Of a stretch of DNA of 21,064 bases, positions 3,412 through 21,064 are shown in pieces (positions within the stretch are counted from its first letter, which is position 1; every line of letters starts with the position of its first letter). The notes under the pieces were generated by a model. The model saw nothing but the letters and a program-made list of their open reading frames with translations, had not been told where the DNA came from and did no database searches. Source of the DNA: Phoronis ovalis (Eukaryota > Phoronida > Phoronidae); contig JAOXYB010106270.1 in the NCBI GenBank assembly GCA_028565635.1, positions 1 through 21,064 of the forward strand. Direction: 5' to 3'. Both the position numbers and the translations under genes were made by a program.

Positions 3412-4787
3412 CTTGCTTTTTTACAATGGGGTTGGAATTAAATTTATGTGGCATTATAAAAATTCCTGTCCACTTTTTTCAGTGATCTAGCTTGAAATTA
3501 CTTTTTGCCAGCTTTGCGGTTACATATTATAACATTTGTATGTAAAACAATATGAAAGTTTCTATATTTGTTCAGTTAATTGCGGCGTAATGCTGGTAAG
3601 GCTGTACTTCATATACTCAACCAAAACGAACAGTAAGATGGTAGTATGCATTCATGAAGCTGATTGAGATTAGCTATAACATAACTGATGGTGATATATA
3701 CTAGTAACTGAAGATGGTCTTTGACATTATAATTACATTAGATCCCCTCTTTAGCAACAGCATGTAGCGTGACCGCAGTAACATTTATGCAATTACCCAG
3801 ACAAGTTTTAGCGGGTATATAGATTAGGACTGTGTATATAGAATAGGATATCACTACTAAGATCAATAAAGATGCGTACCAGCTAGGTCTAGAGGAAGAA
3901 TACTTTAAATTGGTTAATTTTTAAAAAGAAAGAGTTTTTTTCTTATTTACTTTAAATATTACTACCCGATCACTACCTCAATTAGTATGATGTAAGAAAG
4001 AGTGACGCAATAGAGTTTTTGTCTATAAGGATAATACCCGTAGGTATTTTACCAAATGGTATTTTATCTCTGATAATTGAATGGTCTATTTTGCCCGGGT
4101 GAATAATAGTGTAATATATGAATGGTGAATGCCATTGAGATAAAGTGCTAAATTTTGGACAGACATAAACATAATAATATAAACTGAATATAAGAATAAA
4201 AAATATGTGAATAAAACTGATAACCGGAATAATTAAAATTAGATGGAAAAAACAACAGATGATTTTTTCAGGTATTCCTCCCTTGCCCATGTTCCTGGAT
4301 ATTAGTATTGAGCTTACTAACGTTATTTTGAGTTTTCATAAAGAAGATGATGATGATTACGGATAGATATTTTTAGTTTTCTTATTGAGACGCCGATGCA
4401 TTGCCGTTATGCATTTGAGGTGCCGTCAACTATTTGTGACTATTTTATACTGATATTGACGGTTGAATCAATTTTGTGACAAGCAGAAAGTTTGTGAGTT
4501 TCTAAGTTTCAAATATGAAATAATTAGGAGAATTAAGTGATATTAGATATATTAAAACGTTATTATTAAGATTGTAAATAAAAAACTTATCTCGTTTATT
4601 CTTAACTCAACTTAGCAAACAAAATATAATATGTGGTTATCTATCCACATTTCAGGAGATGATCTGTGTTTACTCAACTACTTTAAAGTTTGAATTCATG
4701 TTAAACATCATCTTTAGCCAAATAAAACCTTTGTAATCTACCTTATGAAGATCAATTAATAAAGGAGTTTCAATTTCTTTGGAAATA
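3408..4787 (+). repeat. Segment C: extra copy of kinesin intron sequence
   Basis: It aligns with about 13670-15497 in the same orientation, from CACTTGCTTTTTTACAATGG to TTTCAATTTCTTTGG. Shared landmarks include ACCAAAACGAACAGTAAGAT, AAATATGAAATAATTAGGAG and AGCCAAATAAAACCTTTGTAA. Compared with the intron copy it lacks about 425 bases (13996-14420) and about 60 bases near 14893-14955. It abuts Helitron remnant 1 on its left. It contains no exon; the minus-strand open frame at 3982-4290 has no recognisable content and a degraded partner at 14714-14953. Confidence 0.85.
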
Positions 4788-5630: not shown

Positions 5631-6835
5631 TGTGGATCGGGTGATTAAAGTCAGTTTCAGAAAAGTATGTTTCTTTGTGTTGGACCTTATCGGATACATG
5701 TGCCCCAACATTTTGATTAATAGTCCGGTTAATTTACTACTGGTCGCTGGACAATTTTATTCAAAACGAGCTTAATGTAGTTCCTTTAAATTTCTTTCAT
5801 ATGTAAACGTTTCGTGTTTAATTTGATTCGTACGTATCTTTTATAAATACTTAATTCTCATTCATATAACAAGCATATGGAAGTGCATATACAGGAATAG
5901 CTGCAACACTGGTGCCAGTGCATGCCTTTGCAGTGATTGATAGGATGCTGCGATATATTACGGGTGTTCAATTAACAAGTGCCGTTTTGGTGGGAAGATT
6001 CTTCTTCTTGGGGGGCGATTTTAGACAAGTTCTTCCAGTTATTCCAAAAAGCCCACGTGGTATAAGGACGCAATTGATTTTCCCATCCACTTCTATAGTA
6101 CATTCATGTAATTTAAATCATTATAAAAATTTCCCAAACATTGCGCGAAGAAGATTACCTGCTAAAAACTGAAGATTATTATGTATACTACTCCCAGTTA
6201 ATTTTTCGTGCAGGCATGACCACCAACATTTTTTGCTATTCCACTATGTAGACTACCCCCCAGGAAAATGCAACCTAACAACTGACAAAATTCAGAGCTT
6301 TGCCCTAGCTCAAATAATCCCTTTAAATGTTGGTGTATCTTACTTTAAAAAGCTAATATTAGTTTCAATCGCTTGTACAGTCATTTATCTTTCAAACAGA
6401 AACAGCCAAAAAAGCCAGCGTCAAGGAGGAAAAAAGAATAAATCATGAATTTAAGGTTTTCGCACTTCTTCCAGCAGGGCCAGACCACTCCGCCACCACT
6501 GTGACCTTATGCCACGTACAGTTATTATTATTGGAGCTCGTGTTCTTATATCAAGAATAAAACTGGCCCATCCTGCCAATTACCTTGCAGAGGACCAGTT
6601 TCCCATCAGACCGTATTTCTCCATAAACATTAAAAAGTCCCAAGGTCAAACCGTTGAAATGCATGTTTAGCATGTTTCCGCCAGCACCAGTGATTGCTCT
6701 TGGTCTGCTATATGGTGCTTTCTCAAGGGCAACATCTTTTGCTAACATTAGTGTGAAAGTTCCCAGCATAACCACACAAGGGCTCTTTGATAGCAATTAC
6801 ATTTACAAAGCCGAATGTTGTATATAATTATTCAG
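5631..6835 (+). mobile_element. Helitron remnant 2: broken Pif1-like helicase
   Basis: It starts with the same non-coding leader as remnant 1. It then has PVHAFAVIDRMLRYITGVQ and FFLGGDFRQVLPVIPKSPR (5912-6060), which cover the Pif1 region after the DEA box and the GDFRQ block. After degraded sequence it resumes at about 6528 with GARVLISRIKLAHPANYLA, FPIRPYFS, KSQGQTVE and ALGLLYGAFSRATSFANIS. Frameshifts and stops separate the parts. It lacks the AATLL block that remnant 1 retains. Frames at 6233-6448 and on the minus strand at 6551-6796 show no recognisable function. Confidence 0.87.
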
Positions 6836-16912: not shown

Positions 16913-17132
16913 GTCACGAACCCAAGCAATCCCATGCAGAGCTTGTGAATGAATAGTTTTCTCACGACTATTTCATCAATTGATTTACTTCCTGTTTGTA
17001 AACAGGTGAACGCTGGCAATCAATTACACTACAAACAAAGGTGTATCTTACTTTTAAAAAATCAGTATTCCAGCCATGCATGATCTATTCATTCACAAGA
17101 CGCTGCGAGCTGGGTATTTTTGGATTTGTGAC
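16913..17132. mobile_element. Short TIR element (MITE-like)
   Basis: Inverted ends of about 45 bp begin GTCAC: left 16913-16956, right about 17085-17132. The inner 15 bases, CTTGTGAATGAATAG (16942-16956) against CTATTCATTCACAAG (17085-17099), are perfect; the outer part matches with several differences. The 128-base core has no open frame of note. I see no clear target duplication, so the outer limits are approximate and the superfamily unknown. Confidence 0.6.
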
Positions 17133-17334
17133 AGCTGACTTACCCAAGTTCATGATGCCAATAGTTTGTTAGAGGTGAATCCTATTGAAATTACTGTGTG
17201 GAAGTTGAGTGTTATCTGTGTGAGACTTTTTAATGTAATATATAGCAGCTTCAAAGTTATGCTGAACATATAGTTTTGTTTTCTAGGAAATGTGTTTTAT
17301 GATAATCTGGTTTTTATTTTTCATTGAAGTTATA

Positions 17335-17369
17335 AACCCTCCTAACCCCCCCCACACCCCCACCCCCCG
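17335..17369 (+). repeat. C-rich low-complexity tract
   Basis: A run of C with few A and T (ACCCCCCCCACACCCCCACC and following) lies within the AT-rich flank. It makes the 69-codon frame at 17290-17499 read as a Pro-rich stretch (NPPNPPHTPTPR), which is low complexity and not a gene. Confidence 0.7.
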
Positions 17370-17664
17370 GTTTTCATTCACATTGTATATACCTTTTATA
17401 AATAACAAGTTCCTAATTAAGGCATTAATTTATTCACGATTACAACATATGTTTTGTCTGTATATTTTAAACTTGTTGTTCATCAAGGCGGAATGTTAAA
17501 GCCTCATCGCGAAAAGGCTGCTTTCTCTGGTTCAGTTAATAATATTAATGACATCATATACTAAACAGTTCAGCTTTGGAAGAGGTAACAGTTCAGCTTT
17601 GGTTGGGATCCAATCAGGCATAACATAAACAGAACAACTTGGATGTACTTAGTGGTGTATCTGT

Positions 17665-17690
17665 GATAATAATAATAATGATAATAATAA
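17665..17690 (+). repeat. AAT trinucleotide microsatellite
   Basis: About eight ATA/AAT units with one interrupting G (ATAATAATAATAATGATAAT and following). It lies in an otherwise featureless stretch from 17370 to 18090, which I searched without finding a gene. Confidence 0.85.
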
Positions 17691-18096
17691 CCATATGTGA
17701 TACATTTTTCCATTAAATGACTTATCTCGTCATGATTGCGGTATATGTAAGATACAGTGCAATGATGTGTAATTTTAGTTTTGCTTCTGCGTAGCTTTAC
17801 AAATCACTATTTCTGACAAGTACATTGATATCGCATTATGTACGTGCTTGTTTTTACACGGAAGGGGTGTCGGGAACATTCACTCGCGTTCAAGGGATTT
17901 TGTTCACCAAAATTGACCCATTTCAGTATTATCGTTCGGAAAAAAAATTAAAGATATCAATTTATGAGAATTTCGCTTAAAAAAAGCGTGGGACTTAAAA
18001 GATGGACTTAATTTTTGGGAACTTCTTAGGACATTCCTACCAATATCTTGGTGAAAAAAAATACCCATTTGAACTGCATATCCCCGTGTTCATATA

Positions 18097-18260
18097 TCTA
18101 TACTACTAAATCTCGAGTGTCCGTCTGTCACTCTTTCCACCAAATATCTTCAAAACAATTACATGTATAATCATGACCTTTTCACACATCGTAGGTGTCG
18201 ACGATGGTTCGGGTTCCTCAAATTTTGGAGTCAATCGGTCAACGGTATCATATTTAATGG
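18097..18260 (+). mobile_element. Helitron-like 5' terminus
   Basis: After an A at 18096 the sequence begins TCTATACTACTAAATCTCG and continues GTGTCCGTCTGTC, the typical 5' end of many animal Helitrons (TC start, TATACTA-TAAA, then CCGTCTGTC). Helitrons insert between A and T, as here. A possible 3' end is CTAG followed by T at 18539-18543, with a weak CTTG-CACA-CAAG hairpin before it, which would make a roughly 446-bp non-autonomous element. The 3' end is a guess. There is no coding sequence. Confidence 0.45.
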
Positions 18261-18988
18261 GGCATTTTTGAACCTCTAGCATCATTATTTTTTGCCTGTG
18301 AGAGTCACGTGAACATGTCTGAACTCGGCCTTACGTGACCTATACATCTCTATCAAGATCCGTGGTTTACCAACAGGTTTATCCTTATAAATGAGTTAAC
18401 GTTCTGAGTTTGGATGACATACCCCTTCCAAAAATGCTTGTACGCCTGCGCTTTGACACACTTTAGATATATTGTGTCTATAAATGCATCCCCACTATAA
18501 AATTAGAGATACCTTGCACACAAGCCACCACAACGTAACTAGTATCAAGAAGCAAAAAAAAAATCCTAAACAATTCCGTAGAATGTGCGGCTGAATACGA
18601 TATGCAGGTTATGAATTCCGACCGCAACTTTAACTATGTTATACTCCCCACATCATGCACAGCCACCGTGTCATCTAACTTGCAAAATGATTTTAAAAAC
18701 TATTCCAAACAATTAGTGCTGTGACTAATAATGAGCTTCACATATATCGCAAATGCATCAGTATGGATACCGAGCTAAACCATATAGTGTTATTTCTATC
18801 ATTCAACGAACTGTCACCCACAAGGCTAGATGATTTAATATTAATATACTGCATTGTTATAAGAGAAGAAACGCTATTCAGTTTCCGCAACTAATGCATA
18901 TTGAAGGTGAAAGAAGCTCAAGTTAAGTGACTTTGACACGTATCTCCATTTTGTAGAACAACTTCGTTTTTATTGTGTGTGCTTGTAA
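18261..18988. other. No gene seen; 3' flank of the deiodinase locus
   Basis: Reading the minus strand downstream of the deiodinase-like stop, I looked by eye for a SECIS hairpin (ATGA, an AA loop, GA quartet) and found none convincing. I see no further coding sequence on either strand. Confidence 0.4.
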
Positions 18989-19736
18989 CTAATTCTTTGA
19001 AAATTCATTAACATAATTTCCTTCATACTTAACTACACCATTTAAAATAACATAAAGACGTTCTGGAAAACCGCTATATTTAATCTGAGCATCGTTTGAC
19101 CACGTGTCCACCAAGATTGAACAGGAAGGCATCATTAATTCTTTTAAAAGTTTTACCGCATCTAATTATATAAGCGATCTTGTATTGATTGATGCGTGCG
19201 CACTCTCAGTGGATCATTAGAAAACACCTACCCGTCAAAGGGATGTGCTTCTGACATATAAATAATAATGAAATCACCTACATGTTTAAAATCGGCGATG
19301 ATGTCTTCAAACTCATCAAGCCGATTTCTAAATAGAGATCAGGTGATATTCCCAAAATTCACTACTAGGGGGCGATCTTGTTTCATGAAATGCAAGAGAT
19401 TGAATTCCCTTTTACCATCAGTGCTTAGTACAGTAGGGTTGGGAGCTAATGAATCACGTTTTGCTTCTTTTTCAATTTCTTGGATACACGAAGAAAGGTC
19501 TTAAAGGCAGAGAAATTAAGCGAATTAAAACATTTCTCGAAAACACCAATAGTTCTACAAGACTTTTCCACGTTTTGAAGTTTTTCATCCGTTTCTGATT
19601 GTCCTTTTTTCTCCAACGTTCCAGAGATAATGTTTCCAATCAGCGGGACTTGAAGTACTAACCACAGTAGTTGAAGCGCTATGAATTGAAGCCTTATTTT
19701 ATTTATCTTATGAGAAGATCCGTGGTAATTTTTAAT
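18989..19736 (-). pseudogene. Iodothyronine deiodinase-like selenoprotein, broken
   Basis: Read 3' to 5' on the + coordinates. A membrane-type helix (LQFIALQLLWLVLQVPLIGN) lies in the first open part (19736-19446). Another frame then gives EKEAKRDSLAPNPTVL, DGKREFNLLHFMKQ, RPLVVNFGNIT (RPLVVNFG at 19374-19351), TGA (19341-19339), SLFRNRLDEFEDIIADF, DFIIIYMSEAHPFDG and HQSIQDRLYN. A third frame gives LLKELMMPSCSILVDTW and FPERLYVILNGVVKYEG, ending in TAG at 18991-18989. Deiodinases read RPLVLNFGSCT-Sec-PPFM, IYIEEAH-SDGW, NLQDRL, CPVVLDTM and LPERLYV in this order. Family role: Sec-dependent removal of iodine from thyroid hormones at membranes. Lesions are TAG for the Trp of DGW (19230-19228), one base missing in an A run (+ strand T run 19468-19472), and one near 19162. 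The C-terminus is about 15 residues short. The family call is firm; a functional state is doubtful. Confidence 0.85.
19339..19341 (-). other. In-frame TGA at the deiodinase selenocysteine position
   Basis: The codon lies between NFGNIT and SLFRNRL. In deiodinases the catalytic Sec sits at this point (NFGSCT-Sec-PPF). A random stop would be unlikely to fall here. The normal Cys two residues before Sec is Ile, and the two following Pro are Ser-Leu, so the active-site loop is unusual even apart from the lesions. Confidence 0.85.
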
Positions 19737-19748
19737 CTGAAAATATAA
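19737..19748 (-). other. Probable splice acceptor before the deiodinase-like membrane segment
   Basis: On the minus strand TTATATTTTCAG precedes ATT AAA AAT TAC, and only phase 0 stays open after it; the other two phases hit stops within a dozen codons. The segment has no Met, so an upstream exon ending in phase 0 should supply the start. No such exon is proven. Confidence 0.5.
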
Positions 19749-20288
19749 ACAACTTTGAGGGCAGAAGGCTTACAATAACAACACCTGTATAGCAGGAAAC
19801 ATGAAAAGTTTACTGTGAGATTAGAATAAGAGTTATTCATGGAGTGGTCCAAGTAATAAAAACTTGAACATGGTGATACATGATAATATCATTAAAAATC
19901 ATTGTTACAATTTGTACAATTTCCAGCAAATTTGAACAAATATAATGGTAGACATAGACCTATGTATTTATTTACAACCTTGGTTACATTAAAACATGTC
20001 TAAATACAGCTACGTACAAACTTGAATGATTCATTCAGTAGAAGTAAACATTCCTATAGAAATATGTGATACGCTAAAATGACCCTAAAATCCGATAATT
20101 CCTTTTCTTGTATAGTTCCTTTCTGTCTCTGGATCACTTAGTGCATCCCTTCGTAGCTGGGTTACATTAAACGCCGCATATTATCAATCATGTCCCCGCT
20201 GTTCTAAAAGTCGCAAAGTATGTTACCTGTTGCTGAAGAGCACTGACGAGTGCGTGCATACACTATTTTACAGCGTTGTACGATTTCA
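19749..20288. other. No gene seen
   Basis: If the deiodinase-like gene has an upstream exon this would be its first intron (minus strand). I find no recognisable coding sequence or element on either strand. Confidence 0.4.
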
Positions 20289-20741
20289 CTATTGATCCGC
20301 TACTTCGTAATTGCTCAGTACTATACACACTTGTTCGTTTAAATGATTATAACTGCAAGGCCACATATCAATATGGATTTTAGTCCCATTACCTGCACTT
20401 TTTACTTCAAGGTAGTAATTATATAACGCTTTAAACATAATCGCCTTTATTAAGAGTGATCGAATAACTTTAGGTGGAAACAGAGGTCTTGTCGGACTCA
20501 TTATGATTCTCTCACACTTTGGGGTGCTAATTTGGCAAGTTATAAACTCGCATCCCTGGGACGGAGTCAATATGAAAGTGGGTACCCATGTTCCGACATG
20601 GCTTTTCAAAAAAGCCTCGAACGAAGTGAAATTCTGGAAAAAATACACCTCTAAGGAAGTGAGTTTTAGACAATGATGTTTAAAAATAAAAGAGATATGA
20701 TATAGTATCACCTCCCCCAGATCACCCCCGGGAGTAATCAT
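20289..20741 (-). other. Unassigned 150-codon open frame, also open in part on the + strand
   Basis: The minus strand is open for 150 codons. A TTTTTTCCAG acceptor lies within it (about 20635), followed by HVGTWVPTFILTPSQG and MSPTRPLFPPKVIRSLLIK, and YNYYLE is followed by GTAAAA, which would be a phase-0 donor able to join the acceptor at 19737. The + strand is open from about 20412 to 20664 and reads a hydrophobic helix (GLVGLIMILSHFGVLIWQVI), then SHPWDGVNMKVGTHVPTWLF and EVKFWKKYTSKE, ending at a GTGAGT donor. Either could be a real exon; I recognise neither family. The minus reading would fit a first exon of the deiodinase-like gene, but that is speculation. Confidence 0.3.
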
Positions 20742-21064
20742 AAACTTGTACTGACTGTTCCTCGGTAGATTTTGCTTTACAATATAACTGGATTACTTCT
20801 TTTTATTCGATTAGCCGTTTCAACTAGCAATGCCGGAATAGCGTAGATAATACAGCTTTATTGAGCGCACTATATTTTTACTATAGATCACCATTCACTT
20901 TTATGATATCGTGAATCAGCGGCTTTAATTGCATGAGTCACTCAGATCCAGTTAATACACATATCATAGTTATGCTTTACTAAAACCACTGCTTACATTA
21001 TTAATATATCACCTGGTTGAGTTTTAATTGGTTATGGTTGGTCACGGTTTAATTTTTATTACGA
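20742..21064. other. No gene seen
   Basis: AT-rich sequence to the end of the window with no open frame, repeat or RNA gene that I can support. Confidence 0.45.

Follow-up and report, generated by a model that had tools for sequence, protein, structure and literature searches.

Near one end of a 21,064-nucleotide contig from the phoronid Phoronis ovalis (GenBank JAOXYB010106270.1; this whole stretch is called the window below), the minus strand carries sequence related to the iodothyronine deiodinases (Table 1). In a profile search of the whole assembly, positions 19016-19536 match the Pfam family T4_deiodinase far above chance, with 108.7 bits (E 9.0e-30) at 19168-19536 and 30.9 bits (E 6.9e-6) at 19016-19165, both of which exceed the curated cut-off of 27 bits. 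When the two pieces are searched separately against Pfam, the larger yields 115.8 bits and the smaller 34.1 bits for this family, which is the sole one to reach E <= 0.001 in each case. Among solved structures, the larger piece recovers two distinct sequences at E <= 0.01, Dio3 (4tr3/4tr4) and Dio2 (9h48), and the smaller piece recovers Dio3 alone at E <= 1. The NCBIfam model deiodinase_rel likewise ranks first for the locus, at a score far under its full-length cut-off. Of the 689 pieces of the window, 3 score above the inclusion threshold of a profile derived from 25 full-length relatives, and all three lie at this locus in colinear order. AhpC-TSA, a rival thioredoxin-fold family, has five matches in the assembly and none on the contig with the locus, and the assembly-wide T4_deiodinase search gives no other deiodinase match on these 21 kb. 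Judged from its sequence, the locus is an iodothyronine deiodinase by descent, as it combines the T4_deiodinase match with a TGA codon placed after RPLVVNFG-xxT.

Table 1. Features of the deiodinase-like locus, in positions of the window
Feature	Position	Strand	Evidence or remark
Deiodinase-like pseudogene (probable), entire recognisable extent	18989-19736	minus	N-terminal limit uncertain; ~750 bases
Probable N-terminal part	19449-19736	minus	Weakly supported (5.0 bits, E 0.48); ranks fifth among 689 pieces, in colinear order
Hydrophobic stretch within probable N-terminal part	19635-19691	minus	
Block up to Sec position (LAPNPTVL ... RPLVVNFGNIT)	19342-19500	minus	52.5 bits, E 1.5e-15, 25-row family profile
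EIEKEAKRDSLAPNP	19435-19479	minus	
RPLVVNFGNIT	19342-19374	minus	
TGA, selenocysteine position	19339-19341	minus	C2459 and C2134 have their TGA at the same aligned position
Post-Sec block, to EAHPFDG	19231-19338	minus	44.7 bits, E 3.5e-13, family profile
EAHPFDG, then TAG	19228-19251	minus	
TAG stop in Trp column	19228-19230	minus	Trp occupies this column in 96% of 70 family rows
SIQDRLYN, then TAG	19162-19188	minus	Homology switches frame here
C-terminal block (DAVKLLKEL ... PERLYVILNG ...)	18989-19165	minus	48.1 bits, E 3.4e-14, family profile; TAG at end, without the Gly-Pro of relatives
SILVDTW	19100-19120	minus	
FPERLYV	19049-19069	minus	
Possible SECIS relic, non-working	18758-18815	minus	9.4 bits; chance possible

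A first-pass annotation of this DNA, made from the sequence alone, had proposed a deiodinase locus in an invertebrate-type genome. The family assignment, the type of genome, the named blocks with their order on the minus strand, the TGA at the Sec codon and a 78-residue plus-strand reading frame at 19268-19504 were all recovered, and no other thioredoxin-fold family, which the annotation had named as the rival to exclude, gave a better match. It had spread the blocks over three minus-strand frames, whereas they occupy two; the third frame contains the weakly supported N-terminal part only. This last piece runs from stop to stop at 19446-19769 and lacks an ATG; an upstream exon is possible. On its own, it returned no deiodinase match in Pfam. 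Functional deiodinases have an N-terminal membrane anchor with a start codon, and a hydrophobic stretch is present in this piece, in a setting of weak homology and without an ATG.

The assembly (77.4 Mb in 4805 contigs) contains seven T4_deiodinase matches on four contigs, including that of the locus. Two of the others, C2459 and C2134, each have a Sec exon with the motif GSCT-TGA-PPF; GKYVE is followed in both by an apparent intron, beyond which lies the last exon. The fourth contig, C1583, has a last exon alone in the stretch examined. Exon limits on all three were drawn by eye, and first exons were not found. Within these limits, neither the Sec exon nor the last exon of C2459 or C2134 contains a stop apart from the TGA, and a TAA and a TAG that fall within the T4_deiodinase matches of C2134 lie beyond those limits. 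The two relatives are 81.5% identical to each other, and each is 34-35% identical to the locus. At least one SECIS-like element lies downstream on each of the three contigs, giving four in total.

Some further features of these contigs were recorded. C1583 (L013) has its SECIS-like elements at 2833-2901 and 4231-4297, after one recovered last exon, and both are part of a duplication (83% over 174 bases). C2459 (L011) carries at 2514-2587 a second, degenerate Sec exon, GSNT-TGA-LPF, that is 88% identical to 575-648, and decay of deiodinase pieces thus extends beyond the locus. A dispersed repeat, which in L013 occupies 266-370 and, inverted, 573-606, in the manner of a small DNA transposon whose ends are inverted, has a copy at 20565-20666 of the window and occurs on at least 39 other contigs, with 40 candidates scored out of 488. 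The same repeat adjoins the C1583 gene at 85% identity, and its presence both there and in the window supports a common source.

Elsewhere in the window, a PIF1-like helicase fragment, perhaps derived from a Helitron, lies on the plus strand at 5912-6172 (26.5 bits; cut-off 25.9), and a weak Hammerhead_HH9 match on the plus strand at 20215-20290 (20.3 bits; cut-off 52; E 0.14) is likely due to chance. The one COX1 match found in the assembly, with in-frame TGA codons, is on the mitochondrial contig C1114 (L010, L026; 15,713 bases). With genes named by eye, one strand of this contig carries cox3, an atp6-like frame, nad3, nad2, cox1 and cox2, with the atp6-like frame between cox3 and nad3, and the opposite strand carries nad5, nad4, nad4L, cob, nad6 and nad1; atp8 was not located. 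With atp6 shifted, this order is similar to the molluscan consensus given in PMC4189740 and PMC3704766. The former describes few events as separating that consensus from phoronid, brachiopod, nemertean and entoproct orders. Taken alone, the mitochondrial gene order points to a lophotrochozoan, likely a mollusc, although it does not establish the phylum.

The reading of the deiodinase-like locus is broken at several places. Two strongly supported blocks lie in different frames, the switch falling near 19162-19188, and TAG codons come after HPFDG, SIQDRLYN and SKN. A second frame change is probable near 19446-19500, where the N-terminal piece meets the Sec block (19339-19500). The final frame stops at a TAG ahead of a complete C-terminal part, and it lacks the Gly-Pro that 48 of 48 family rows share. 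The active-site loop reads NIT-U-SL against SCT-U-PP in the family: Asn replaces a Ser found in 50 of 50 rows, Ile replaces a Cys found in 86% of them, and Ser replaces the Pro that follows Sec in 94%. Where a functional selenoprotein would have one open frame besides its Sec TGA, the locus has TAG stops and one or more frame changes, and where a functional deiodinase would have an SCT-U-P loop and a C-terminal Gly-Pro, it has NIT-U-S and no Gly-Pro. The first-pass annotation was silent on the two TAG stops that follow HPFDG and SIQDRLYN and on the meaning of the frame changes, and it had presented a selenoprotein gene missed only through its TGA. The additional stops, the frame change, the absence of a recognised SECIS and the loss of near-invariant residues leave that view without support. 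It had rightly observed that NIT-Sec-SL is unlike the usual SCT-Sec-PP, but decay is a better reading of this loop than a new active site. We also considered an intron that conceals a TAG or the frame change, and rejected it because conserved coding blocks run through those places when inspected by eye.

In a conservation table made of 67 (P0016-P0082) of the 122 retrieved proteins and three local rows, 9 of 37 scored conserved columns are changed in the locus, the second highest share after P0039 (10 of 39) among rows with at least 15 columns. In a first tree, for which the same 67 retrieved proteins were used, the end branch of the locus is the longest of 71 rows, by a slight amount (1.58, compared with 1.56 for P0030 and 1.55 for P0041). 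It is again the longest (1.49; next 1.06) in a second tree of 47 rows, from which 24 long-branch or redundant rows, P0030 and P0041 among them, had been dropped by hand. Other family rows approach the locus in both branch length and conserved-column changes; branch length by itself is no proof of decay, and the stops and frame change carry the argument. Differences between the locus and C2459 are spread nearly evenly over the three codon positions (33, 30 and 39 in 85 codons), with 33, 31 and 44 against C2134 and 7, 4 and 13 between C2459 and C2134; the even counts partly reflect saturation.

No match to the Rfam SECIS models was found in positions 17000-21064 of the window. Applied to the four local SECIS-like elements, Rfam SECIS_1 finds two, at 27.4 and 24.3 bits and under its cut-off of 35, and the other two were recognised through pattern and alignment. 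A local model made from these four elements, which scores its own training elements at 79-93 bits as expected, was scanned over the whole window. Downstream of the coding sequence, the highest-scoring match (18758-18815) has an E value of 0.12 over 1,091 bases and of 2.3 over the whole window, no better than expected by chance. The matched sequence starts with GTTGAATGAT, as do most of the local elements, and lacks one stem arm; it may be a SECIS relic. Positions 18748-18825 fold no better than shuffled sequences (z 0.14; 99 of 200 as good), in a test that separates weakly, as three of the local elements themselves show only a small advantage over their shuffles (z -1.37, -1.14 and -2.37). A pattern test for a relic (1 of 5000 shuffles) was discounted because the pattern had been picked after the sequence was viewed. 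Both the Rfam and the local models can miss divergent elements, and so a divergent working SECIS could be present at the locus. A search of the assembly for tRNA-Sec gave nine matches, none over the 47-bit cut-off, with a best score of 46.6 (53 of 2114 candidates scored).

We conclude with considerable confidence, from sequence comparison, that the locus is a diverged iodothyronine deiodinase with a TGA at the Sec position, and that it is a pseudogene that would yield no working enzyme. The better-preserved relatives in the same assembly favour this reading, whereas the strong scores kept by the core blocks speak against it. The same strong scores, and the position of the locus on a 21 kb contig in a fragmented assembly, could be taken to mean that the stops and frame changes are errors in the assembled sequence. 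Some of the breaks could indeed have this origin. As a general account it is improbable, since it accounts poorly for the altered loop at the active site, for the lack of Gly-Pro and for the length of the branch, and since in both C2459 and C2134, within the limits drawn by eye, nothing but the TGA interrupts the reading of the Sec exon and of the last exon. Still harder to credit is a living variant enzyme with a NIT-Sec-SL site, in which RNA editing would turn TAG into a Trp codon and frameshifting would restore the reading. Relatives do have Trp at the position of the TAG that follows HPFDG, and alignment A1 places the final TAG at a Trp position too, but G-to-A changes in Trp codons commonly produce stops. 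Such an enzyme would also depend on a SECIS that went unrecognised, on several recoding events and on one or more frame shifts. An extended form of this idea, in which a lophotrochozoan keeps a Dio3-like intronless living lineage beside an intron-bearing set, with NIT-Sec-SL at its active site and TAG turned to Trp by A-to-I editing, would be equally far-fetched.

The manner in which the copy arose is a separate matter. At the position where C2459 has its apparent intron after GKYVE, the coding sequence of the locus reads through unbroken, and it probably also reads through an acceptor-like site of C2459 before VDTFYG, which falls in the weakly supported N-terminal part. Such read-through could have been left by a processed retrocopy, a special case of the pseudogene reading in which a spliced deiodinase mRNA was reinserted and then decayed. 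This origin is possible but doubtful: no poly-A tract was seen by eye beyond the coding end, and C2459 and C2134, at 34-35% identity, are not recent parents. An intronless lineage explains the read-through equally well, as PMC3316567 describes all detected vertebrate Dio3 genes as intronless. Relatives such as the retrieved protein P0022 span both of these positions, possibly within one exon. Most likely, the locus is a pseudogene of a deiodinase that lacked an intron of its local relatives.

For this preferred reading, the following course of events may be proposed. An ancestral deiodinase gene with at least one intron fewer than the local relatives would have made a thioredoxin-fold selenoenzyme, its TGA being decoded as Sec with the aid of a 3' SECIS. 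Function would then have been lost, perhaps as related genes persisted in the genome, after which the gene would have acquired a nonsense codon and frame changes, its active site would have been altered by substitutions, and its SECIS would have disappeared. The surviving TGA would be the fossil of a Sec codon.

By identity over at least 90 shared columns, the nearest rows are P0056 (45.9% over 109), P0022 (41.5% over 193) and the scallop protein P0053 (41.4% over 111). None of the groupings tested on the 47-row tree is rejected (p-AU 0.341 with scallop-type rows, 0.322 with the local trio and 0.171 with frog rows), so that the locus could belong with any of the three. In a large protein set, the locus piece alone had no relatives at E <= 0.001 (two candidates), 15 of 17 candidates were confirmed for the C1583 exon, and 107 of 2006 were confirmed for alignment A1. 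In the viral_contigs set, four pattern matches were found and none was confirmed.

The locus illustrates that a TGA at a Sec site is no evidence of a living selenoprotein, and that other stops, frame and SECIS need to be checked jointly. If confirmed, it would record the loss of one deiodinase copy where others were kept, a small data point in the history of thyroid-hormone enzymes in lophotrochozoans. With the iodothyronine deiodinases (PF00837; Dio3 4TR3/4TR4, Dio2 9H48) it shares the order of blocks, the Sec position and the motifs RPLVVNFG, EAHP-DG and PERLY, and it differs from them in its stops and frame changes, in NIT-U-SL for SCT-U-PP, in the missing Gly-Pro and in having no recognised SECIS. 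Compared with its local relatives, it agrees with C2459 and C2134 in family and in the place of the TGA, but those two have the apparent intron after GKYVE and SCT-U-PP, and they and C1583 have SECIS-like elements downstream, whereas none is recognised here. Sec-containing mussel deiodinases, invertebrate clusters that include dead copies without SECIS, and intronless vertebrate Dio3 genes are already published. The molluscan deiodinases McDx and McDy of Mytilus coruscus, described in PMC8481496, carry in their catalytic centre a Sec encoded by TGA and have a SECIS in the 3' region; these are full-length and expressed, unlike the broken copy at the locus. PMC3473315 reports 4 DI selenoproteins in Lottia and 12 in Capitella, describes DI gene clusters in invertebrates, and interprets copies whose SECIS is incomplete or missing as inactive pseudogenes. 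The inactive copies described there are clustered, whereas the present locus is the sole deiodinase match on its 21 kb contig. By analogy with those published copies, the locus is most likely another such relic.
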